From an uncultured Allomuricauda sp. (GTDB lineage: Bacteria > Bacteroidota > Bacteroidia > Flavobacteriales > Flavobacteriaceae): 33,693 nt of DNA. The stretch is from the NCBI GenBank assembly GCA_937899065.1, contig CALBPG010000253.1, positions 1-33,693 of the forward strand, in the 5' to 3' direction. Below are positions 5,752 through 27,006 of the stretch, in pieces (within the stretch, counting starts at the first letter, position 1; each line of letters opens with the position of its first letter). The position numbers and the translations under genes are program-made. A model generated the notes under the pieces. The model worked only from the letters and a program-made list of their open reading frames with translations, was not told where the DNA came from and searched no databases.

Positions 5752-7047
5752 TTATTCTTCTTTTTTAAGCAGATACGCAGATTCTGATTTAACGACTTTA
5801 AATCCAGAATTCAGCTGCAAAGTCCAACCTTCTCCCATTACTGTCTTCTCAGTAATAGAGTGTGGTTCGCTTAAAGTAACGCCACTCCAATTGGTCTTGA
5901 CCATAGCACCCTGCTTGGCATCAACCTTGCCCCAAACATCGGTAATGCTAAGCGTTGCGTATACTGTGCCATGTCCTTCCAAAGGAACCAAAGTATTGGG
6001 GTTAAATGAGATATTCATTTGCTGAAAGGGGAGCGTGAGGTTAGGTCCCTCTACAAATCGCTTTTTTAAATCCGCTAGTTGTTTCTTTTTGACCTCAGCA
6101 CGTTCTAGTTCCATTAATTGAATGCTCTCACTATTGTAGGTTTTATTGGAAACATCCCAGTTTTTTTTAAAAGCTGAGGTAGGAATTTCGAATCGTTTCA
6201 TGAAATATGACGTCAAATTCGTCTCTGCGGTTATGTTCAATTGCCATTTGGGGTCAATTTTTGATAAAAGATAACCGTAAAATGGAATCGTCAGGTATGG
6301 AAAGGAGCGAACAAAGGAAGGTGCTTTAAAAAAGCGTTGTTTTTTGTCAATAAGCATTTCCTCCATTTCAACGGGAGTTGCTCCACTCAGCATAATGCCT
6401 GTATACTCGGCGAGTCCTTCATTGAGTTCCAGCTCGTTTTCGGCATTTTGAATCAGTGAATCTTGGTGTCTTTTGTTTCTGAACAACAAAGCATGGCTTA
6501 TATGTTCTTTAGTTTGTTGGGGATTGTCAGCTTTTAGGGCAGCTTCCAACGCTTCCAATTCCAATTTTACCCAGAATCGACCGTCATAGTTATCCATGTG
6601 CCCATTGTCGGTTTCTTTCAGATTACCGAAGCCAATTTTAGGTTGCAGTTGATGGAATAGTTCATGTATGGTCAAGGATTGTTGTCGTATGGCTTCCTTA
6701 GGTAATGGGAGCATCACCATAGACCAGGTTTTATCTTCCCAATCCAGCGCAGTGTTGGCGATGTTTTTATCTTTTGGGAACTGTCCAATAAATAAGTTTC
6801 CATCTTGTTGAAGGGATTGGGTTGGGGTGTTTTCATTAGCGTATACCATATGGGTTGCTGGGTCTACAAAAAGTAAAGAACCCTTTAATGATTTTCCCCA
6901 AAAGGCTCCACTATCTTTTGATAAAAGACTATCCACGTTCTGAAAAACACGGGAGATGTTTTGTTTGCGTACTTCAAGATCTTGAACATCTTGACCTAGA
7001 ATGCATTGCGCTACAAGCAGCCCAAGGGTGCAGAAAAAAGCTTTCAT
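5752..7047 (-). CDS. Secreted putative zinc metallopeptidase (HExxH)
   Basis: 431 residues with a signal peptide (MKAFFCTLGLLVAQCILG-Q, cleavage near 19). I do not recognise a named family. It carries HELFH (128-132), the HExxH zinc-peptidase signature, on a predicted helix after TIHEL. About 78 residues later comes NEGLAEY (209-215), the arrangement in which gluzincins supply the third zinc ligand (a Glu of NExxAEY). This supports a periplasmic or secreted gluzincin-like fold. The C-terminal 100 residues are strand-rich and lack both a T9SS domain and a lipobox. It lies 13 bases downstream of a VOC gene and 36 bases upstream of the GNAT gene, probably in the same transcript. Zinc binding is an inference from the motif pair. 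Confidence 0.72.
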   Translation of the reverse strand: MKAFFCTLGLLVAQCILGQDVQDLEVRKQNISRVFQNVDSLLSKDSGAFWGKSLKGSLLFVDPATHMVYANENTPTQSLQQDGNLFIGQFPKDKNIANTALDWEDKTWSMVMLPLPKEAIRQQSLTIHELFHQLQPKIGFGNLKETDNGHMDNYDGRFWVKLELEALEAALKADNPQQTKEHISHALLFRNKRHQDSLIQNAENELELNEGLAEYTGIMLSGATPVEMEEMLIDKKQRFFKAPSFVRSFPYLTIPFYGYLLSKIDPKWQLNITAETNLTSYFMKRFEIPTSAFKKNWDVSNKTYNSESIQLMELERAEVKKKQLADLKKRFVEGPNLTLPFQQMNISFNPNTLVPLEGHGTVYATLSITDVWGKVDAKQGAMVKTNWSGVTLSEPHSITEKTVMGEGWTLQLNSGFKVVKSESAYLLKKEE

Positions 7048-13158: not shown

Positions 13159-15669
13159 TTAGTGCAAAGCATCCAGTACCTCCTGTGGTAGTAATACCTT
13201 ATCGATAACATGCACCACTCCATTGCTTGCAAAATTATCGGCACCGATAACTTCTGTATCTACATGGGTTTTGTCTCTGATGAAGACACCGTGGTTCAAG
13301 ATGGCAAATAAATCTTCGCCCTGAACGGTGCCCAAACGTTGATGGTTTGAGAAATCTCCAGCGGCAAAAGCATCTCCTGACACTACATGGTATGTAAGTA
13401 TGGAGGCCAATAACGCTTTCTCAGCATCGGTATCAAAGTCATCCAAACTATTGTATTGTGGTCCAAGCGCGTGAAGTAAATCCGCGAAAGCTTGGTTTGT
13501 AGGTGCGAATACTGTGAACGGACCATCTCCAGATAGTACGCCTACCAATCCAGCATCAGCTTGGATTAGGGCATCAACCAAAAGACTTAAGTCATCAACG
13601 GACTGGGCCAATTCCACAATGTTTGGTACTGGAGGATTGAGGATATCCAATACTTCTTGTGGCAACAATACCTTGTCGATAACATGTACCACTCCGTTGC
13701 TGGCTTCTACATCTTCCAACACTACTAGAGCATTATCGTCGGTAGCGTCGGTAATATGGATGTTTCCATTTTTAATGCTAATACCAACATTTTCTCCTTG
13801 GAAGGTTCCAATTTGCTGTCCGTCAGACAGGTCACCCGAAAATGCTGTGGTACCGGCTACAACATGATACGTCAACACTTTTACCAACAAGTCTTTTTCA
13901 GCTTGGGTATCAAAATCAGAAAGACTGTTGAAGTCATCGCCTAGTGCATCAAGCAAATCAGCAAAAGCTTGGTTTGTTGGCGCAAATACGGTGAAAGGAC
14001 CATCTCCGCTCAAAGTTTCCACCAAACCTGCATCGGCTTGAATCAAAGCATCTACCAATAGGCTTAGGTCATCGGTTTCAATGGCAATTTCTACGATGGT
14101 TTTCAACTGAAGACTTGCAACGAAATCCAAAGCTACTTGTGGTAACAATACCTTATTGATAACGTGTACCACACCATTGCTCGCTTCAACGTCTGGAAGT
14201 ACTACGGTAGCATTTGTATCAGTAGCGTCAGCAACGTGTACAACACCATCTTTGATGTTTATGGTTACGTTATCACCGAAAACGGTTGGGATTTGCTGTC
14301 CGTCCATCAAATCTCCAGAGAAAGCAGCGGTTCCGGATACTACGTGATATGTTAAGATGTCAATCAAAAGGTCGATTTCCTCCTGTGTATCGAAATCTTC
14401 AAGGCTGTTGTAGTCGTCACCAAGGATATCCAACAATTCTACAAAGGCAGCATTGGTTGGTGCAAATACGGTGAAAGGACCTTCGCCACTCAAGGTTTCA
14501 ACCAAACCAGCGTCTGCTTTAATCAAAGCGTCAACCAATAAGCTCAAATCCTCAGTTTCAATGGCGATTTCGACAATAGTCTTCAATTGTAGTGAGGTTA
14601 CGAAGTCAATTGCAGCCTGTGGCAACAATACTTTGTTGATGGTATGGGCTACACCATTGGTGGCTAAAATATCAGTGCCAGTAATTTCAGCGTCTACATC
14701 AGATGCATCTCCAATAACGAATGAACCATCTTTCTCTATTATTTCAACATTGTTTCCAAGGAATGCAGTACCTACTTCTCCAGCTGCTAAATCAGCTTCC
14801 AATACTTTTGCAGGAATCACGTGATACAACAAGATGTTTCGTAGCAAATCGATTTCTTCATCAGTATCGAAATCATCCAAGCTATTGTAGTCATCGCCTA
14901 AAATACCTAACAGCGCCACAAAAGCGTCATCGGTAGGAGCAAAAACGGTAAAGGGTCCTTCTCCACTTAAGGTTTCAGAAAGACCAGCTTTGATGACTGC
15001 CGCTTCCAAGATGGATAAAGGCTCTGTTTCAACAACAATCTCAACCAAATTTTTGGTAGGCTCGTCGTCATCATCGTCATCCCCGGCAAGGGCATCCAAT
15101 ACTTCTTGTGGAAGCAATACTTTGTCAATAACGTGGACGATTCCATTAGAAGCAGTTACATCTTCAAGGACCACTTCCGCTTTGTCGTCCGTAGCATCTT
15201 TTACAAAGATTCCATCCGTTAAATCGATAGTAACATCTTCGCCCTGCGCAGTACCTATCATTTGTCCATCAGATAATGACTCTGAAGCGGCAGCAGTGCC
15301 TATCACAACATGGTAGCGCAATATTGTGGCCAGAAGGTCTTTTTCTTCTTCTGTGTCAAAATCTTCAAGGCTGTCAAAACCTTCTAATCCACCAAGTAAT
15401 TCAGCAAAGGCATCGTTGGTAGGCGCAAATACGGTAAAAGGACCATCGCCACTTAAGGTGGAGACTAAATCAGTACCATCATTTTCATCGGCTTTTAATA
15501 AAGCAGCCACTAAACTGGTAAGGGCGTCGGTATCTTGTGCCGTCTCGACAATGTTACTTTCCATTTGAGCCCTTGCGGCTTCAACATCGTCTTCGTTCTC
15601 GCAGGACCATGCAAAAAGGAGTAGCACGGCCACAAGCAAATAATGCTTGAGTTGTAGCATTTTTTTCAT
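13159..15669 (-). CDS. Five-domain fasciclin (FAS1) surface lipoprotein
   Basis: 836 residues. The signal sequence ends LLLFAWSC, so Cys23 is the predicted lipidated residue; it is followed by ENEDD, an acidic run of the kind that directs lipoproteins to the cell surface in Bacteroidota. Five FAS1 domains follow at about 39-195, 207-355, 364-515, 524-675 and 680-836. Each has the H1 box (GPFTVFAPTNxAF), a YHVV strand and the H2 box (ASNGVVHVIDKVLLPQ). A run of six Asp (197-202) separates domains 1 and 2. Domains 3 and 4 are clearly recent copies (160-residue period). FAS1 proteins mediate adhesion or matrix contacts; the ligand here is unknown. It is the last of three adjacent paralogous genes and has its own terminators on both sides. 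Confidence 0.93.
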   Translation of the reverse strand: MKKMLQLKHYLLVAVLLLFAWSCENEDDVEAARAQMESNIVETAQDTDALTSLVAALLKADENDGTDLVSTLSGDGPFTVFAPTNDAFAELLGGLEGFDSLEDFDTEEEKDLLATILRYHVVIGTAAASESLSDGQMIGTAQGEDVTIDLTDGIFVKDATDDKAEVVLEDVTASNGIVHVIDKVLLPQEVLDALAGDDDDDDEPTKNLVEIVVETEPLSILEAAVIKAGLSETLSGEGPFTVFAPTDDAFVALLGILGDDYNSLDDFDTDEEIDLLRNILLYHVIPAKVLEADLAAGEVGTAFLGNNVEIIEKDGSFVIGDASDVDAEITGTDILATNGVAHTINKVLLPQAAIDFVTSLQLKTIVEIAIETEDLSLLVDALIKADAGLVETLSGEGPFTVFAPTNAAFVELLDILGDDYNSLEDFDTQEEIDLLIDILTYHVVSGTAAFSGDLMDGQQIPTVFGDNVTINIKDGVVHVADATDTNATVVLPDVEASNGVVHVINKVLLPQVALDFVASLQLKTIVEIAIETDDLSLLVDALIQADAGLVETLSGDGPFTVFAPTNQAFADLLDALGDDFNSLSDFDTQAEKDLLVKVLTYHVVAGTTAFSGDLSDGQQIGTFQGENVGISIKNGNIHITDATDDNALVVLEDVEASNGVVHVIDKVLLPQEVLDILNPPVPNIVELAQSVDDLSLLVDALIQADAGLVGVLSGDGPFTVFAPTNQAFADLLHALGPQYNSLDDFDTDAEKALLASILTYHVVSGDAFAAGDFSNHQRLGTVQGEDLFAILNHGVFIRDKTHVDTEVIGADNFASNGVVHVIDKVLLPQEVLDALH
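13645..14592 (-). repeat. Internal tandem duplication of a FAS1 domain
   Basis: Two consecutive units of about 480 bp (14592-14113 and 14112-about 13645) encode domains 3 and 4 of the five-domain protein. Both units open with the LQLKTIVEIAIET segment and share long identical stretches such as LSLLVDALI, ADAGLVETLSG and VEASNGVVHVI. Domain 5 is related but more distant. Confidence 0.8.
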
Positions 15670-15705
15670 TTCATATGTGTTTTTAGGTTTAAATACAGTG
15701 GGATG

Positions 15706-15737
15706 AAAAAGGGGGACTGATAAAAGCCCCCCTTTTT
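15706..15737 (-). terminator. Terminator between the second and first fasciclin genes
   Basis: AAAAAGGGGG (15706-15715) and CCCCCTTTTT (15728-15737) form a 10-bp stem with a 12-base loop, four bases past the stop codon of the four-domain gene upstream. A/T arms on both sides make it potentially bidirectional. Confidence 0.85.
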
Positions 15738-15741
15738 ATAT

Positions 15742-17619
15742 TTAGTTGTTGGTATCTGGAATTAGCACAGTGTCTAAAACGTGGATTACCCCGTTGATGG
15801 CTTGAACATCAACTTGGTCGATACCGATACCAGTATTTCCGGCACCATCGGTAACATCAGCAATGTTTCCGTTTGTTCCTGGAAGGGTAATGACGATGTC
15901 GTCACCTTCCAAAGTAGGAGCGTTGGTGTTTCCATCAGGAGTCAAATCACCTGAACGAAAATTCAAACCAGCTACTACGTGATGTTGTAAGATTGGTGTG
16001 AGACCTGCTTCATCTGGAATAGCATCCAAAGCAGCGAAGGCATCATTTGTAGGTGCGAATACCGTAAAGGGGTCGTCACCACTTCCATCTTGCGCAGACA
16101 ATACAGCAACAAAATCAGTATTTGGTGTCAATTCTGTAAGCGCTTGAACCAAGGTAGAAAAGTTAGGGTCGGCTGTAGCGAACGTTACTACCGTTGGCAA
16201 GTCGATAACTGCATCTACAGCATGGATTACACCGTTGGAAGCTACGATATCAGGAATCGCGACATTACTAACACCATTCAAAGTAACACCGTCATCCGTA
16301 TTGATGTACAGGCTTAAGTTTTCATCCATGGCGTACTCAGCAAGCGTATTGACGTAAGAGTTGCTCAAACCACCGCTGAATGCAGCAGCACCAGAAATCA
16401 CATGATTGGACAGAATAGCGTTCAAGTCGTTTCCAGCAGGATTGGAGAAGTTTTCAAATGCTGTATTCACCGGAGCGAAAACAGTGTAGGTTCCCATATC
16501 ATCCGACAATAAATCCGTAAAAGTGGTATTGCCGCCAGAAGTCAAAGCGCCTACCAATTCCGTTAAGTTGGGGTTGGCAACTGCATGATCTACCACATCT
16601 GGTATGGTGATAACCGCATCTACAACATGTACCACACCGTTCAACGCTTTTATATCTGCAGCACTTACGGTAGAGATACCATTAAAGGTTACCCCGTCGG
16701 TAGCATCATAGAATAAAGAAATGTTGGCATCGCTTACACCAGTAGCTTGCGTGCTGGCATATCCTTGCCCCATCATGTTTAAATCAGCTTCGAATAAAGC
16801 AGCTCCACTGATTACGTGGTTCAAAAGCACGTTAGTCAAAGTCTCTACAGGTACTTCATTAAGAGGAGTTCCATCCAAGAAAGCAGTAAAGGCGTCATCG
16901 GTTGGTGCTAAAACGGTAAAAGGACCTGCTCCTCTAAGTACTGTAGGAAGGTCTCCATTGGCTGCTTGAAGTGCAGCAACCAAACTTTGTAAATTTTCGT
17001 TGCCAATAGCCAAATCGGTAATAGGTACTAGGATAATGTCTGCCAATTGGTCCAAAATGGTCTGCGGCAACAATACTTTGTCAATAATGTGCACAATACC
17101 ATTGGTTGTCTCCACATTAGCTGCAGTAACTTCTGCAGCAACGCTAGTGGCATCTTGTATGAAAACTCCATTTTGTGTTGAAACCGTCAGGTTGCTACCT
17201 TGAAGTGTGCCTAGGGTTTGACCATCGGTTAAATCTGTAGACAGAGCAGCCGTTCCTGAAATAACATGATATTGAAGAATAACTGCTAAAAGGTTTTGTA
17301 ATTCGGTACTGTTGAAGTCGTTTAAAGAACTGAAGCCATCCAATTGTGCGAATAAATCTGTAAAGGCTTGATTAGTAGGAGCAAAAACTGTAAAAGGTCC
17401 ATCTCCACTTAAGGCGTCGACCAAATCGTTGTCCGCACTTTCGTCAGCTTTTTGAAGGGCGCTGACCAAACTAGTAAGGTCATTGGTGTCTATCGCAGTT
17501 TCCACGATATTTCCTTGGGGAGTGGTTGGATTGTTTCCATCATCGTCGTCAGAACAGCCAACGAAAACTAGAGCCAGGGCAATAAAAGAAAGTTGTGTTA
17601 ATCTAATTAGTGCTTTCAT
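15742..17619 (-). CDS. Four-domain fasciclin (FAS1) surface lipoprotein
   Basis: 625 residues from the ATG at 17619; an in-frame GTG at 17640 would add seven residues before the signal sequence. The lipobox region ends ALVFVGC (Cys22), followed at once by SDDDDG, an excellent surface-lipoprotein export signal for this phylum. FAS1 domains lie at about 37-191, 199-339, 341-474 and 476-621. Domain 1 is closest to domain 1 of the neighbouring five-domain protein (NIVETA-DT-LTSLVxAL). Domains 2-4 are more diverged, with shorter loops and VVDAVI- or VLDTVLIP-type H2 boxes. The protein ends just after the last domain. It is the middle gene of the array, bounded by terminators at 17733-17768 and 15706-15737, so it is probably transcribed on its own. 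An adhesion or matrix role is inferred from the fold only. Confidence 0.93.
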   Translation of the reverse strand: MKALIRLTQLSFIALALVFVGCSDDDDGNNPTTPQGNIVETAIDTNDLTSLVSALQKADESADNDLVDALSGDGPFTVFAPTNQAFTDLFAQLDGFSSLNDFNSTELQNLLAVILQYHVISGTAALSTDLTDGQTLGTLQGSNLTVSTQNGVFIQDATSVAAEVTAANVETTNGIVHIIDKVLLPQTILDQLADIILVPITDLAIGNENLQSLVAALQAANGDLPTVLRGAGPFTVLAPTDDAFTAFLDGTPLNEVPVETLTNVLLNHVISGAALFEADLNMMGQGYASTQATGVSDANISLFYDATDGVTFNGISTVSAADIKALNGVVHVVDAVITIPDVVDHAVANPNLTELVGALTSGGNTTFTDLLSDDMGTYTVFAPVNTAFENFSNPAGNDLNAILSNHVISGAAAFSGGLSNSYVNTLAEYAMDENLSLYINTDDGVTLNGVSNVAIPDIVASNGVIHAVDAVIDLPTVVTFATADPNFSTLVQALTELTPNTDFVAVLSAQDGSGDDPFTVFAPTNDAFAALDAIPDEAGLTPILQHHVVAGLNFRSGDLTPDGNTNAPTLEGDDIVITLPGTNGNIADVTDGAGNTGIGIDQVDVQAINGVIHVLDTVLIPDTNN

Positions 17620-17696
17620 ATCTATATTTTTGTTTAACACTATCGAGATGTAATTAAACAGAGATAGTTGCTTTTGTTTATTTTATTTTATAAAAA

Positions 17697-17717
17697 GTTT
17701 AACAAAACGAGTTAAAC
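17697..17717. repeat. Inverted repeat upstream of the middle fasciclin gene
   Basis: GTTTAAC (17697-17703) and GTTAAAC (17711-17717) are perfect 7-bp arms around 7 bases, about 78 bases upstream of the ATG at 17619. A further GTTTAAC occurs at 17632-17638. It could be an operator; no matching regulator is visible. Confidence 0.35.
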
Positions 17718-17732
17718 AAAATGAAGCGACAC

Positions 17733-17768
17733 AAAAAATCCGGCCCACTCAGAAGAGCAAACCGGATT
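17733..17768 (-). terminator. Terminator of the third fasciclin gene
   Basis: On the minus strand, AATCCGG (17768-17762) pairs with CCGGATT (17743-17737) across an 18-base loop that holds a small CTC/GAG stem, followed by a run of T (17738-17733). It begins 24 bases past the stop codon. Confidence 0.85.
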
Positions 17769-17792
17769 GAACAAAAAGGAAAAACTAAGATT

Positions 17793-19835
17793 CTAGGACG
17801 AAAGCTGAGTCAGCACTTCTTGGGGCAATAGCACCTTATTGATGATATGTAAAACACCGTTAAGCACTTCAAAATCAGGTGAAGTAACCTTTGCAGGAAT
17901 GGTTGTTTTGTCTAAGATGTTGATTTCATCACCTACTTCAACAATTAAGGTTTCTCCCTGTACGGTCGAAAGCTCCTGACCGTTAAACAAAATATCTGAG
18001 GTTCCTTTGACGCCATCCACACAATGGTAGACTAAAATCTTGCCTAAGAGCCTTAATTCGGCTTCGGTATCAAAATCTGTGAGGTCATGGATGCCATCGA
18101 GTTGTGCAAAGAGCTCTAAAAAAGCCTGATTCGTCGGCAGGAAAAAGGTAAAGGCCTCCCCGTTTAATACATCCTCTAATGAGTCGCGTACTAGTAAATA
18201 CGCTGTCATAAATATTTCGTTGTCCTCAAGCTCTTCCAAAAGGGCCATGAGATTCTGCTCTGTTTCCGTCAAGACTTGGTAAATCACAGTTTCGGGAACC
18301 AATATTCTATCAATGGTGTGAATGACTCCGTTACCTGCAGGGATGTCAGTCACCAATAGATTAGCATCCAATCCTGCTAGCCCATCTTGTAGCACGAATC
18401 CTTGACCATCGGCAATTACGGTAAAGCCATCACCTTCCAATAAAGTGGGTACAGGTCCTTGCATCAATTCAGAAGAAGTAATGGCACCTGGTACAACGTG
18501 ATAACTAAGAACTTGCCGCAATAAGTCTATTTCAAAAGCAAGGTCAACATCCTCTAGAGAATTAATTCCCGTACCCAGAAGTCCAAAAATGATGTTCACC
18601 GATTCTCCTGTGGGTGCGAAAACCGTGAAAGGACCTTCCTCACCTAGGGTTTCCAAAAGCCCTGTCAATTCCAGGGCTTCCCGTAAAAAATCCAGTTCCT
18701 CAGTGCTTTCGACGATTTCCTTTATGGTAGGCGCGCCTCCGCTCGTATCGTCTGGGTTAAGGGTGTCCAAAAAGTCTTGTACTTCTTGGGGAATCAAAAT
18801 CTTATCAATGATATGTACCACACCATTGCTGGCGAAGTTGTCGGCATTTTCAATATTCGCGTCTACCTCAGAAGCATCACCTATCACGAAGGTTTCACCT
18901 GAGCTAATGATTTCCAAAGTCTCTCCTTCCAACAAGGTATTGACCGTTCCAGCACTTAAATCGGCCGCCGCAATGTTGCCAGGTACCACGTGATACTTTA
19001 AGATATCTTCCAAGATTTGAATCTCGATGAAATTGTCGAAGTCATCAAAGCTATTGAAGGAATCGCCCAATAAGTCGAATAATTCATCAATGGCCGCATT
19101 GGTAGGTGCAAAGACTGTAAAAGGCCCTTCTCCATTAAGGTCATCAACAAGACCTGCTTTGATAACGGCCTCTTTCAATTGGGAAAGTTCTTCCGTTTCC
19201 ACAACCAATTCGACAATAGTCGGTTTCGGAAAAAGAATATCCAACACCTCTTGTGGCAATAGTACTTTATCAATAATATGAACAATACCGTTTGACGCTT
19301 CATTGTCGGCGCCTACCACCTCCGCAGATTCATCGGTTTTGTCGTTGATGAAAACGGCGCCGTCTATAGTTACAATCAAGTTTTCTGATTGCACCGTGGG
19401 CAAACTCTGTCCATCCGATAAATCTGAACTAAACGCCTTGGTGTCGGCAACCACATGGTATTGTAAGATTTTGGTAAGGATTTCTTTCTCTGCTGCTTCG
19501 TCAAAATCATCCAGACTGTCGAATCCGTCCAATTGTGCTAGCAAGGCGTTGAAGGCATCGTTGGAAGGAGCAAATACCGTGAGCGGGTCTCCTGTGGCAA
19601 GGGTATTGCCCAAATCCCCACCGGCAGCTTCTACGGCGTCCAAGAGGGTGGTCAGGATATCAACGGTTTCTGCTAACTCAACGATATTGGGTAACGAATT
19701 GGTGTCGTTGGTATCACCAGTACGGTCGGTAGTTGTTCCCTCGTCGTCATCATTGTTACTGCAGCTGTTGAATGCCAGTGCTACGAGGAAGAAAAAAGCA
19801 ATTTTTTTGAAAAGTGGGATGGTTTTCATTTTCAT
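17793..19835 (-). CDS. Four-domain fasciclin (FAS1) surface lipoprotein, divergent last domain
   Basis: 680 residues from the ATG at 19835; a second ATG two codons on (19829) is equally possible. An upstream extension to 19889 lacks the signal-peptide pattern and was rejected. The lipobox ends LAFNSC (Cys25), followed by SNNDDDEG, again an acidic surface-export signal, and a Thr/Asp/Asn-rich spacer to about residue 49. FAS1 domains lie at about 50-201, 206-355, 370-515 and 525-680. Domains 1-3 keep GPFTVFAPT-type H1 boxes (the first reads DPLTVFAPSNDAF). Domain 4 is divergent: its H1 box reads EAFTFFLPTNQAF and its first helices are longer. This is the first gene of the fasciclin array in the direction of transcription. 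Confidence 0.92.
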   Translation of the reverse strand: MKMKTIPLFKKIAFFFLVALAFNSCSNNDDDEGTTTDRTGDTNDTNSLPNIVELAETVDILTTLLDAVEAAGGDLGNTLATGDPLTVFAPSNDAFNALLAQLDGFDSLDDFDEAAEKEILTKILQYHVVADTKAFSSDLSDGQSLPTVQSENLIVTIDGAVFINDKTDESAEVVGADNEASNGIVHIIDKVLLPQEVLDILFPKPTIVELVVETEELSQLKEAVIKAGLVDDLNGEGPFTVFAPTNAAIDELFDLLGDSFNSFDDFDNFIEIQILEDILKYHVVPGNIAAADLSAGTVNTLLEGETLEIISSGETFVIGDASEVDANIENADNFASNGVVHIIDKILIPQEVQDFLDTLNPDDTSGGAPTIKEIVESTEELDFLREALELTGLLETLGEEGPFTVFAPTGESVNIIFGLLGTGINSLEDVDLAFEIDLLRQVLSYHVVPGAITSSELMQGPVPTLLEGDGFTVIADGQGFVLQDGLAGLDANLLVTDIPAGNGVIHTIDRILVPETVIYQVLTETEQNLMALLEELEDNEIFMTAYLLVRDSLEDVLNGEAFTFFLPTNQAFLELFAQLDGIHDLTDFDTEAELRLLGKILVYHCVDGVKGTSDILFNGQELSTVQGETLIVEVGDEINILDKTTIPAKVTSPDFEVLNGVLHIINKVLLPQEVLTQLSS

Positions 19836-20050
19836 TAATTTGGTTCTGTGTTCTATTCGTTGAAAGTAAGGTATAATCGTTCCAACCATTTAAAAGCATC
19901 CTTAATTCTAGGTTATGCCAACTTTAAATGTTGGTCGTAAGGTCAATTACAAGAATAACTTCAAAATGTCACAGGAGTATCACGAAAAGCATACGAATCC
20001 ATGGAATTTGCCCTACAGCACACAACAATGAAAAAGCACTTCAGATTTTG

Positions 20051-22251: not shown

Positions 22252-22734
22252 ATGGTAAAGCGCCTCTGCATCCTCATTTTATTCCTGGTATTCACATTGG
22301 GGCACAGTCAAATTCAGCGGGATAAAGCCCTACATTTTTTGGGTGGCCATTTGTACGGTTTGGCTGGAGCTGGAATTGCAAAGCAAATATCCGATGGTGA
22401 TAGGGCATGGACATTTGTTGGTGCCGTAGCAGGGAGTGCCTTGATTGGGGTTGCCAAAGAAGCCGTGGACGCTGGGCAACGACCAAACGGTTGGGATAAC
22501 GAAGATTTGTTGGCTACAGTTTTGGGTGGCATCTCCGTAGGTCTTATGATTGAGATTTTCTCAAAGAAAAGAGACCGCTATGATAGGGTTGATTTAAACA
22601 GCGTTCAAGCGCAAGCCTTTGGGTTGAATCCGATGCCGGATATTGTTTTTAGCAACGGAGAGCTCCCTAATCTGAACGCTCTGGGTTTCACCAGTTCCCA
22701 AACGCCCCAAATTCAACATTTGCTCACGCGCTAG
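22252..22734 (+). CDS. Small exported DUF2279/YfiM-like protein
   Basis: 160 residues with an N-terminal signal peptide or helix (MVKRLCILILFLVFTLGHSQ). The body reads DKALHFLGGHLYGLAGAGIAKQI, then GVAKEAVDAGQRPNGWDNEDLLATVLGGISVGLMIEI. The DKxxHF, KExxDA and DLxATxxGG landmarks resemble the DUF2279/YfiM group of small envelope proteins, whose role is unknown. Two hydrophobic stretches (about 34-46 and 82-102) may be membrane-associated. Its TAG stop overlaps the stop of the convergent DUF58 gene within the palindrome CTAG (22731-22734). Confidence 0.65.
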   Translation: MVKRLCILILFLVFTLGHSQIQRDKALHFLGGHLYGLAGAGIAKQISDGDRAWTFVGAVAGSALIGVAKEAVDAGQRPNGWDNEDLLATVLGGISVGLMIEIFSKKRDRYDRVDLNSVQAQAFGLNPMPDIVFSNGELPNLNALGFTSSQTPQIQHLLTR

Positions 22735-24065
22735 AGGAGTCCTCGCGCTTTGATTTCCAAATATTTGTTGATGGTATTGATGGTCAAATCTTCCGGTTTG
22801 GTTAAAATGGTTTGAATACCATAGCGATTCAATTCGTTCACAATCAATTTCTTTTCATAAATGAACTTTTCGGCAATGGTTTGTTCAAATACCTGAAGCG
22901 TATTTTTGGGTTGGGTTTCGGCAAAGTGGTTCAGCTCGGTGTTTTCAAAAAAGATAACCACCAAAAGATGTTGTTTGGCTAATGCTTGAAGATAGCCCAA
23001 TTGACGGTGCAAGGCGTCCAACGTCTCAAAATTGGTGTACAGCAATAACAAACTCCTTTGGTTGATGTTGCGTTTGATATCGATGTACAAGCGGCTGAAA
23101 TCACTCTCTACTAAATTGGTTTCCAAATTGTAGAGCGTTTCCAAAATCAAGCTCATCTGAGAATTTCTTCGCTCGGCAACCACCCGATTCTCAACCTTGT
23201 TACTAAAGGCCAACATACCGGCTTTGTCTTGCTTTTTGATGGCAATATTACTAATGACCAAGGTGGCATTGATGGCATAATCCAACAAACTTAGGGCGTC
23301 AAATGGCATTTTCATGACCCTTCCCTTGTCAATGATAGAGTATATCGGTTGGGATTTTTCATCTTGATATTGGTTGACCATTAGCTGGCTTTTCTTCGCC
23401 GTGGCCTTCCAGTTGATGTTACGGATGTCATCTCCCTGCACATATTCCTTGATTTGTTCAAACTCCATGGTATGGCCAATGCGTCTGATTTTTTTCAATC
23501 CATATTGGTGCAAACGATTGGTAAATGCAATCAAGTCATACTTTCGCAACTGTAAAAAAGAGGGGTAGACTGGAATTTCCGCATTTTCGTCAAAGCGATA
23601 TCTTTTGCTCAAAAAACCAATGTTAGATTCAGCAAACACGTTGAGACTACCAAAAGAATAGGTTCCCCGCTCGGTGGGTCTGAGATGGTATTGAAATGTT
23701 TTGCTTTCGCCCTTTTTCAAACGACTGAATTGTTCAAAATCCCTCTTCTGAAATTGGAATGGAATCTCATCAATCGCCTTGATGCTAACTGGAAATAAGT
23801 ACTCGTTTCCAATTTGAAACTGAATCGGATTTTCATCTCCATTGGACAACTTATCCGGTAGTATGCGCTGGGCTCTGATTTTTCCTTTAGAGGTGAATAA
23901 AAGCAAGTAATCTGCAATAAGCAACAAACAAAACAGAAAAAACAGGATTCGAACACTAGAGTATAGAGATGCAAAAAAGTAGGATAGCATGAAGCCCAAG
24001 ACCAATAGGGTCAAGACAACGAAGAACCGTTTTTGCAGATATATCGAGCGAAAGAACTTTTTCAA
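22731..24065 (-). CDS. DUF58 domain membrane protein
   Basis: 444 residues. Two adjacent N-terminal TM helices (about 13-33 and 36-55) precede a beta-rich extracytoplasmic segment and the cytoplasmic DUF58 core: GDDIRNINWKATAKKSQLMVNQYQDE (DIR.I.W..TA...L.V) followed by a von Willebrand A-like domain (PIYSIIDKGRVM, then LLDYAINATLVISNIAIKKQDKAGMLAFS). DUF58 proteins act with MoxR ATPases in envelope-stress and protein-maturation roles. The start is TTG at 24065, three bases after the moxR stop; the MKKFFRS N-terminus matches homologs and no upstream ATG exists. It is the last gene of the operon. Confidence 0.92.
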   Translation of the reverse strand: MKKFFRSIYLQKRFFVVLTLLVLGFMLSYFFASLYSSVRILFFLFCLLLIADYLLLFTSKGKIRAQRILPDKLSNGDENPIQFQIGNEYLFPVSIKAIDEIPFQFQKRDFEQFSRLKKGESKTFQYHLRPTERGTYSFGSLNVFAESNIGFLSKRYRFDENAEIPVYPSFLQLRKYDLIAFTNRLHQYGLKKIRRIGHTMEFEQIKEYVQGDDIRNINWKATAKKSQLMVNQYQDEKSQPIYSIIDKGRVMKMPFDALSLLDYAINATLVISNIAIKKQDKAGMLAFSNKVENRVVAERRNSQMSLILETLYNLETNLVESDFSRLYIDIKRNINQRSLLLLYTNFETLDALHRQLGYLQALAKQHLLVVIFFENTELNHFAETQPKNTLQVFEQTIAEKFIYEKKLIVNELNRYGIQTILTKPEDLTINTINKYLEIKARGLL

Positions 24066-24068
24066 AAT

Positions 24069-25067
24069 CTATCGTGGAATTTCAATGCTTTCAACAATTT
24101 GACGGACGACCTCATGCGCCGTTAAGCCTTCCATTTCCCTTTCTGGGGTCAAAATGATACGATGCGCCAAAACGGGTACAGCCACTTTTTTGATATCCTC
24201 AGGGGTAATAAAATCACGGCCTTGAATTGCCGCCAATGCTTTCGAAGCTTCCATCAAGGCGATAGAGGCCCTTGGTGATGCTCCCAAATACAAATTGGCG
24301 TTGGTTCGGGTGTTGTTCACTATGGAAGCGATATAGGTAATGAGGTTTTTCTCAATGACAATTTCCTTGATTTTGGATTGGTACTCGGCAATCTGTTTAG
24401 CCGTTAGCACGGCGCTAATCAAGTCTTCTTCGATAGCCCCTTTTTGTTCGTGTTTTCGTTCTAGAATCTCAACTTCTTCCTCGAGTGAGGGGTAATCCAC
24501 ATTGATTTTGAATAGAAAACGGTCTAATTGCGCCTCGGGTAGGCGATAGGTGCCTTCTTGCTCCACGGGGTTCTGCGTAGCGAATACTAAAAATGGTGGT
24601 GCCATATCGAACTCTTGTCCATCAATGGTAATTTGTCGTTCTGCCATCGCCTCAAACAAAGCTGCTTGAGTTTTGGCAGGAGCGCGGTTGATTTCGTCAA
24701 TGAGGATGATATTGGAAAACAAGGGTCCTTTTTTGAATTCAAACTCTGAGGTTTTCACGTTAAAGATGGAGGTACCCAGAATGTCACTGGGCATCAAATC
24801 TGGAGTGAATTGAATTCTGCTAAAGTCAACATCCATAGTTTTGGCCAAAAGCTTTGCGGTAACGGTCTTGGCAACCCCAGGTACCCCTTCAATCAAGGCA
24901 TGTCCGTTGGATAGAATGGAAACAATGAGCAATTCTACCATATCGTGTTGCCCAATGATGACCTTTCCCAATTCGGTTTTGATTTGGTTCACAGCATCGC
25001 GTAAGGCGCTGAGGTCGACTCTTGATTGGAATTCCAATTTCTCTTCGTTGGGTTCTTGTTCGTTCAT
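24069..25067 (-). CDS. MoxR-family AAA+ ATPase
   Basis: 332 residues from the ATG at 25067; a GTG two codons upstream overlaps the preceding stop and is less likely. Walker A is GVPGVAKT (about 61-68) and Walker B is IILIDE (about 120-125) in NIILIDEINRAPAKTQAALFEAM, the MoxR signature. Sensor 1 is VFATQNPVEQEGTYRLPEAQLDRF and sensor 2 lies in LGASPRASIALM. MoxR ATPases act as chaperones that assemble or activate partner proteins, usually the DUF58 protein encoded next to them, as here. It starts two bases after the TGA that closes the DUF4350 frame, and ends three bases before the DUF58 start. Confidence 0.96.
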   Translation of the reverse strand: MNEQEPNEEKLEFQSRVDLSALRDAVNQIKTELGKVIIGQHDMVELLIVSILSNGHALIEGVPGVAKTVTAKLLAKTMDVDFSRIQFTPDLMPSDILGTSIFNVKTSEFEFKKGPLFSNIILIDEINRAPAKTQAALFEAMAERQITIDGQEFDMAPPFLVFATQNPVEQEGTYRLPEAQLDRFLFKINVDYPSLEEEVEILERKHEQKGAIEEDLISAVLTAKQIAEYQSKIKEIVIEKNLITYIASIVNNTRTNANLYLGASPRASIALMEASKALAAIQGRDFITPEDIKKVAVPVLAHRIILTPEREMEGLTAHEVVRQIVESIEIPR

Positions 25068-25069
25068 GT

Positions 25070-26278
25070 TCACTTTTTAAATTCAGTTATCAGCTTGTTC
25101 AGCTGTATGCTATCTTGTTCAGTATGCGATGGTTTTTGTTTCAAATGGATGATAAACTCCAATAGGGTTTTGGTCTCCGAAAGACTCTTTCCCGATTTGG
25201 CGGCAAGGTCCTTTATCATTCGTTCATTGATGTTTGAGGTATCCAAATGGTATCTATTTCGCAAAAACGCTAGAAAATAAGTTGACTTTTTATGGCTGAA
25301 AACACTAAAATCCTTGAGCAGATAGAACAAGGAACCTACCGTCTAAGCAAAATCCACCGACGAATTATCAAAAAGCTCAATGACGGCAATAAAGCTCTGA
25401 TCCCAAATCTCCCTAAAAATCACAAAAAGGATAATACCAATCATCGTCACGTAGTAAGCCCATTTTAAACTGGCCTGTGTCAAAATAAATCGAATGGGCG
25501 AGGTGACTACTTTTCTTCCTGATTTTTTAAAATCATCCCAAAGCAAAAGCTCAGGGTCGATATACGAAAAGGTATTGGCAGCATATTTTTGGTTTCCTCT
25601 CAGCAAATAGTAGTTTGAAAATGCTACGGGATTGGTATGGACAAAAATGTTTCCATCTCCAAAGGCCACTTTAACAAAGTTGGGCTTGCGTATCTTTTCT
25701 GCCGCTTCTGTTTCCAAAATAGCTTCCCGGGTGAACGAGATATGTCCTAAAACCTCCGTGTTTAGGGTATCCAACTGGATGATATGCGCATGTTGCATGC
25801 CGCGGTCAAAAGTGTAGGTTTGGTTTTTGAAGTTAGCGTTGGTAAAATCTAAAACGGCTTCATTTTCTTGTAGATAGTATTCAGATTGAATGACCAGATT
25901 CAGGGTGTCCCTCAAAATATAACCCACATCTTTTGAGGAGATAAAAGCGGTATTGCCTTCATTCACATAATCCAAGAGTTGGTAGGTTTCCTGTTCGTCA
26001 AAGAACATAAAATCGTTCACGAATAGAAACGTAGAGGGCGTTTCATCATCATAAGCACTTAAAAATTCGTATGTGTTCTCATCAACGGTTTCAATTTCGG
26101 CCTCATTGAAAATGGCGGACAGCTCATTGTATAAAACGAAGCAGCCAAATGGTATTTTGGATGAACTGACAAAAGAAGGGCGCCAATTCAACGGTCGCGG
26201 ACGTACGATTTCCGTCACGATAATGCCTATCATGACGATACCAAATAGAATCAATATGATTTTTGACTTCTTATCCAC
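25070..26278 (-). pseudogene. DUF4350 protein gene interrupted by an in-frame TAG
   Basis: The frame opening at GTG 26278 encodes 311 residues and stops at TAG 25345-25343. The same frame continues open for a further 90 codons to TGA at 25072-25070. Read through, the junction is SSVDFA-(stop)-TVGSLFYLLKDF. This is where DUF4350 proteins of Flavobacteriaceae have an uninterrupted S/N-S-V-D/E-F-A/T-K/Q-T-I stretch leading into the C-terminal domain (YFLAFLRNRYHLDTSNINER...LAAKSGKSLSETKTLLEF). A CAG-to-TAG change (one base) would produce this. The N-terminal part has one TM helix (6-24), the DUF4350 (ThuA-like/GldG-like) domain and a second TM helix (about 265-283). The C-terminal part could in principle be restarted at TTG 25330 (86 residues). 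The full-length product would be 402 residues. GTG start supported by the MDKKSKIILI N-terminus. Confidence 0.85.
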
Positions 26279-26280
26279 GA

Positions 26281-27006
26281 TTATGCAATCATTTGATGTA
26301 ATCGGCTAAACCGATGTTGGGTTTTTTCATAAAGTTTGGCGTCAATCCATTGTTCGCCATACCAAATATTTTCATACAAATAGGAGGCTTCGTCAAAGCC
26401 AGTTTTCAATCGGTTTTCATTGATTTCACGGCTGTAATCCGAATTGGTCTTTTCAAAATGCCAGTCAATAATTTGTCTTTGCGATAGCGCTTTCAAGACC
26501 TTTAAAAACTGAAAACGAACTGCGAGGCGATAATCTTTTTGTTTCAAAGCATCGCGCAGCAGGCTATCCAAATCTAAGTCTTCGATATGTTCTTCGGCCA
26601 AATCAATATCTAGAATGGGGTTCGCTTTTTTGGTGAAAATGGAGCCAAAGTTCTCATTGACAAAGAACCGTACCATAAGATAGATTACAAGCAATCCCAT
26701 CAAGACGTAAATCGTGTATTCCAAAAACTTAAGTGTATTTGGAGAAATATCAAGTCCGAAGGTATTATTGAGTTTCTGCGAAAGCCAATTCAAGAAACGC
26801 AACAGTAAATTCTGTGATTTTCCAGTGTCCACTTCATAATCAAACTCGTCGCCAGTGTATTTTTTGGAAAGGTCTTCTTCAGAGAAAGCCTTTTCCGATA
26901 CGTTCGAATTTGAGTCGTATTTGACGGATAAGGTATCCTCATCTTGGTGGGTTTGGGCCCCAAGAATACATGGCAAAAAGAAAAGTAAAAGAAAAATATA
27001 CCTCAC
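26281..27006 (-). CDS. DUF4129 domain membrane protein
   Basis: 241 residues from GTG 27006, which overlaps the upstream gene's stop as GTGA. A signal peptide (MRYIFLLLFFLPCILGAQ), an acidic extracytoplasmic segment (about 20-80), one TM helix (about 92-112) and a cytoplasmic DUF4129 domain follow. The last contains LDSLLRDALKQKDYRLAVRFQFLKVLKALSQRQIIDWHFEKTNSDYSREI and a closing W-Y-E region. DUF4129 is often the C-terminal part of transglutaminase-like membrane proteins that accompany MoxR/DUF58. It is a middle gene of the operon, two bases from the DUF4350 start. Confidence 0.9.
   Translation of the reverse strand: MRYIFLLLFFLPCILGAQTHQDEDTLSVKYDSNSNVSEKAFSEEDLSKKYTGDEFDYEVDTGKSQNLLLRFLNWLSQKLNNTFGLDISPNTLKFLEYTIYVLMGLLVIYLMVRFFVNENFGSIFTKKANPILDIDLAEEHIEDLDLDSLLRDALKQKDYRLAVRFQFLKVLKALSQRQIIDWHFEKTNSDYSREINENRLKTGFDEASYLYENIWYGEQWIDAKLYEKTQHRFSRLHQMIA

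Follow-up and report, generated by a model that had tools for sequence, protein, structure and literature searches.

Does the DUF4350 gene in this stretch of an uncultured Allomuricauda sp. genome encode a protein that has been split in two, or is the stop codon inside it an artefact of the sequence? The window, that is, the whole stretch of 33,693 nucleotides that was analysed (contig CALBPG010000253.1 of assembly GCA_937899065.1), carries on its minus strand a frame of 311 codons (26278-25346) that is ended by a TAG at 25345-25343. Past this TAG the same frame stays open for 90 more codons, with a candidate TTG start at 25330, up to a TGA at 25072-25070 that adjoins the start of a MoxR gene. 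The original prediction had described both the interrupted frame and its open continuation, and both are present in the sequence. We find that the TAG is most likely a substitution-type sequencing or assembly error of this draft and not new biology; at most it would be a rare variant that the assembly happened to pick up. The parts of the gene are the following.

25346..26278, minus strand: N-terminal part of the DUF4350 gene, 311 codons, with the PF14258 match; laid out as membrane segment 1, extracytoplasmic DUF4350 domain, membrane segment 2 and the start of the linker (membrane segments inferred by eye)
25574..26167, minus strand: match to PF14258 (DUF4350), 56.4 bits, over the cut-off
25343..25345, minus strand: TAG within the frame, most likely an error of sequence or assembly; a sense codon in 29 of 29 aligned close relatives
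25283..25417, minus strand: linker, residues 288-332 of 402, spanning the TAG; 11 of 23 otherwise invariant columns changed
25073..25282, minus strand: distal C-terminal tail, residues 333-402, conserved, with none of 16 invariant columns changed and a substitution ratio like that of relatives
25328..25330, minus strand: TTG, the proposed restart codon; a leucine codon common to several intact relatives, with no sign of a new start

The first 311 codons match PF14258 (DUF4350) over residues 38-235 with E 1.2e-14 and 55.5 bits against a curated cut-off of 30.4, while no Pfam family was matched by the 90-codon second part at E 0.01. A relative of this second part was found in each of the 71 genomes of the genus (counting this one), and in the other 70 it sits in a single open frame of more than 400 codons; the continuation is therefore not a chance reading frame, and the earlier view that it is the C-terminal part of the same protein holds. 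None of these 70 genomes has a split DUF4350 gene or has lost the tail, and none ends the protein at this stop, which answers the comparison with close relatives that had been proposed as a check. A family-wide search gave matches in 268 of 397 drawn genomes, and among the matches listed this genome is the only one with an internal stop. All 80 named loci (the best 80 of 322), which come from Flagellimonas, Allomuricauda and other Flavobacteriaceae, read at least 380 amino acids without a stop. In the alignment column of the TAG all 29 aligned close relatives have a sense codon, but the encoded residue varies among them, so that the single C-to-T change from CAG that had been put forward is not supported.

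When a draft genome shows a single in-frame stop, that stop has to be weighed against the rate at which the same assembly shows stops in conserved genes. The genome studied here is a draft with 269 contigs and 4,049 kb, 92.3% complete. We sampled 618 kb of it (the window and 40 further pieces) and set this sample against one relative, G027, using its operon and genes from 1.2 Mb. A first ortholog pass returned 38 apparent nonsense cases, many of which were frames on the antisense strand or in non-coding sequence upstream; the filter was then tightened, and a stop was counted only with similarity on both sides of it. On this count 7 of 129 orthologous segments carried an in-frame stop (8 stops in 42,490 amino acids), compared with 0 of 131 when the test was run reciprocally (41,223 amino acids; Fisher p 0.007) and 1 stop in 692 segments (178,275 amino acids) at 112 loci of other genomes. 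The single control stop is a TAG near the C terminus of a DUF58 gene in Allomuricauda sediminis (NZ_JAAAMI010000010.1; L085 position 11569, the same as L117 position 6404). The DUF4350 TAG comes in addition to the counted stops, since the identity of the gene to its G027 counterpart (56%) falls under the cut-off.

The interrupted genes, named through their G027 counterparts, include trmD, gltB, nadC and a BT_3928-family gene, all over the cut-off, together with an acyl-CoA dehydrogenase-type gene (two TAA) and a BamP-like gene below their cut-offs and one unnamed gene; an extra early stop in gltD lies too close to the gene start for the counting filter. Stops in gltD, gltB, the acyl-CoA dehydrogenase-type gene, trmD, nadC and other conserved genes fall mostly on two contigs.

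Contig C30: stops at positions 2420, 5365, 8003 and 8021 of L254
Contig C10: stops at position 688 of L193 and positions 6197 and 13175 of L236
Further stops in this assembly: position 2809 of L240 and position 14625 of L200

One of these is trmD, which was matched in 69 of the 71 genus genomes: the sole copy found here carries a TAG, and none of the other 68 genomes with a match has a stop in it. Likewise, no other genome has a stop in the acyl-CoA dehydrogenase gene among the matches listed. For nadC the genus query had an untranslated lead, which makes relatives' stops there uninformative, and this gene rests on the filtered ortholog comparison. No frameshifts were found in the ortholog comparison of the sampled pieces by the criterion used, and their absence is unlike ordinary gene decay. 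It is improbable that a living strain has all of these genes interrupted, so errors are the simplest cause, and as conserved genes elsewhere in the assembly are broken by unexpected stops of a similar kind, a sequence error is the most likely explanation of the DUF4350 cut as well. We infer that this TAG belongs to the same error class as the other stops. Of the options that had been listed for the break, a sequencing error is thus the best supported.

Two other scans contributed nothing to this count. One for in-frame stops based on codon usage gave 4 candidates in 252 kb here, compared with 12 in 349 kb from relatives. Of the four here, three soon reach an ATG and are probably the next genes in the same frame, and as the scan missed the known TAG its negative result is worthless. 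The other, for windows of low identity, was dropped for showing no separation (34 windows in 20,551 amino acids here, 69 in 38,233 in controls).

The mixture of stop types (5 TAA, 2 TAG and 1 TGA among the eight counted) means that no single codon is recoded, and this bears on readthrough or recoding of the TAG, in which the open frame on both sides would be translated as one. We consider this highly improbable. TAG closes the MoxR, DUF58 and RDD genes of the window exactly at the ends of their relatives (19 of 19, 19 of 19 and 20 of 20 compared), contradicting amber readthrough by a changed code, and beyond the stops of DUF58, SpoIIM and RDD another stop comes soon. None of the 34 transfer RNA (tRNA) places found has a CTA anticodon, although at 92% completeness such a tRNA could be missing from the assembly, and the predicted fold of the RNA near the TAG is no stronger than that of shuffled sequence (z -0.07). 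With TAG an ordinary terminator here and no such tRNA found, recoding is unlikely, and the ideas of recoding, a suppressor tRNA and an RNA structure were dropped after these tests.

What sets the DUF4350 gene apart is the sequence around the stop. Columns invariant among relatives were compared in 29 of 32 close relatives, the remaining three being without the locus. In the 45 codons of the linker 11 of 23 such columns are changed here, and no relative changes more than one. Elsewhere in the protein the changed columns number 2 of 12 (N-terminal segment), 5 of 59 (ectodomain), 2 of 11 (second membrane segment) and 0 of 16 (distal tail). The median proportion of changed nonsynonymous sites (pN) is 0.27 in the linker against 0.11 in the five nearest relatives, but 0.25 against 0.26 in the tail, where the ratio to changed synonymous sites (pN/pS) is 0.28 against 0.30. 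A second test used columns conserved in at least 90% of the 80 family loci. Before the TAG the linker has 7 of 13 such columns changed, exceeding each of the 80 loci; after it 2 of 7 are changed, a count matched by three of the 80, and in the tail 0 of 13 are changed. The basic juxtamembrane motif of the linker, with K291 in 79 and R292 and R295 in all 80 of these loci, is gone here, a loss that poor sequence in this patch would explain. Other genes of the locus show at most a somewhat raised level of change, for example 8 of 262 invariant columns in DUF58 against four or fewer per relative; mnmA and MoxR equal the highest relative, and no cluster of four changes in 45 columns occurs in the other genes of the locus. 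On these column counts the erosion is confined to a short stretch that includes the TAG, so that the statement that the C-terminal part shows no visible decay was only half right: it is true of the distal tail and fails for the stretch around the stop.

This pattern gives some weight to a real and recent nonsense mutation, which would have left the strain without the cytoplasmic tail, as a young pseudogene or a tail-less allele whose linker had drifted beforehand. The erosion of the linker does suggest that constraint was relaxed before or with the stop, and the fresh look of the tail is what a young stop would lead one to expect. However, the tail is kept in all of the other same-genus genomes, and the assembly's own stop rate predicts about two such events in the window genes without any biology (1.9 expected in 9,902 codons of 27 genes at 8 per 42,490 codons, although not all of these genes were comparable with G027; one is known). 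We regard a real mutation as unlikely, if still worth bearing in mind. Were it true, the strain could show, as an experiment of nature, whether MoxR-type membrane complexes need the DUF4350 tail to be covalently attached.

Because of the eroded linker, a true split into two cooperating chains also keeps a small probability. One chain would be a membrane-anchored ectodomain that ends shortly after the second membrane segment, on the inner side of the membrane; the other would be the cytoplasmic tail, translated on its own from a restart just after the TAG. The linker would then drift freely since it no longer joins anything, while both ends stay constrained. The erosion is indeed strongest around the break, and the tail keeps all of its invariant columns and a normal pN/pS. 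This pattern of two constrained parts and a released linker was found, but it would also be expected from a patch of errors or a very recent stop. Against the split, none of the 70 same-genus relatives has one, no other stop appears among the matches listed in the family search, error-like stops recur in this assembly, and the RNA shows no structure beyond chance. The TTG at 25330, proposed as a restart, is a leucine codon common to several relatives with the gene intact and not a new start, and the suggested two subunits or altered complex found no direct support. We judge a two-chain protein to be quite doubtful; if real, it would be a natural two-piece version of a subunit of the MoxR complex.

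Several points tell against an error as the cause and have to be set beside the stop rate. A uniform error rate leaves unexplained why the eroded linker is centred on the TAG while the adjoining tail is clean. For the 45-codon divergence the simplest guess would be that the sequence is locally poor, and patches of this kind are plausible: local identity falls far below the gene mean at the stops of acyl-CoA dehydrogenase, trmD and nadC. In trmD 8 of 152 invariant columns are changed, among them residue 40, where the stop lies, and residues 39 and 42; the highest total among the relatives compared (27 of 30 fetched) is 6. The stops in gltB, gltD, the L240 gene, the BamP-like gene and the L200 gene, on the other hand, are not in locally poor stretches. 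Half of the sample pieces, namely the second 20, were taken for the most part from contigs that are long or carry tRNA genes, and the multi-genome control spans only two conserved neighbourhoods (DUF4350 and trmD), whereas the sample of this genome is scattered. The trmD and acyl-CoA dehydrogenase genes were pursued because of their stops, and their counts alone give no rate. Taken together, the stop rate of the assembly outweighs, without removing, the pull of the eroded linker towards biology.

In the living organism the gene most likely encodes one continuous DUF4350 protein of about 402 residues. Hydrophobic stretches read by eye as membrane segments flank the putative extracytoplasmic domain, and the layout would be two membrane segments with this domain between them, a basic linker and a cytoplasmic tail. 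The protein probably works with the MoxR ATPase and the DUF58 protein of the adjoining genes in a membrane complex. DUF58 we take to be a vWA-like domain (von Willebrand factor A).

The neighbouring genes of the operon are these.

24069..25073, minus strand: MoxR-type AAA+ ATPase, the next operon gene, ended by TAG (PF07726, E 9.3e-63; same end in 19 of 19 relatives)
22731..24065, minus strand: DUF58 protein, ended by TAG (PF01882, E 2.6e-16; same end in 19 of 19 relatives)
26281..27006, minus strand: upstream operon gene with a weak DUF4129 match (PF13559, E 2.1e-4, below its cut-off)

The operon runs from a SpoIIM-type gene through a gene with a sub-cut-off GPDPase_memb match and the sub-cut-off DUF4129 gene to DUF4350, MoxR and DUF58. 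Its genes are present in the 20 fetched relatives, save that the G005 contig stops before MoxR, which establishes synteny; genes beyond the operon were not found in every one of the 20. Judged by domain match and gene order, the gene is an ordinary PF14258 (DUF4350) gene within a syntenic MoxR-DUF58 operon. Elsewhere in the window (13159-19889, minus strand) lie three neighbouring genes whose proteins each have four or five fasciclin (PF02469) domains.

In the literature searched DUF4350 occurs in five papers, but no paper joins MoxR, DUF58 and DUF4129, nor does any join MoxR, DUF58 and Flavobacter. Among known systems the nearest are the MoxR-operon DUF4350 proteins of other Flavobacteriaceae (Flagellimonas/Allomuricauda), which this gene resembles in its Pfam match over the cut-off, its gene order and its roughly 402 same-frame codons; the copy described here differs in its in-frame TAG and the eroded linker around it. 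As in error cases from draft and metagenome assemblies, unexpected stops are scattered over conserved genes of one assembly. Shortened predicted proteins have been used to estimate post-assembly errors (PMC6785717); the case treated there concerns indels from single-molecule reads, whereas here the stops are of substitution type and no frameshift was found. A comparative study (PMC5898192) describes the DUF4350 proteins of arCOG01314 as membrane-anchored with an extracellular flavodoxin-like domain, and links them with MoxR-type ATPases and vWA proteins as parts of a complex predicted to act in secretion or membrane remodelling. The gene studied here shares with that system a DUF4350 domain encoded beside a MoxR-type ATPase, and differs in its two membrane segments and cytoplasmic tail, both read by eye; by analogy, the intact protein may have the same role.
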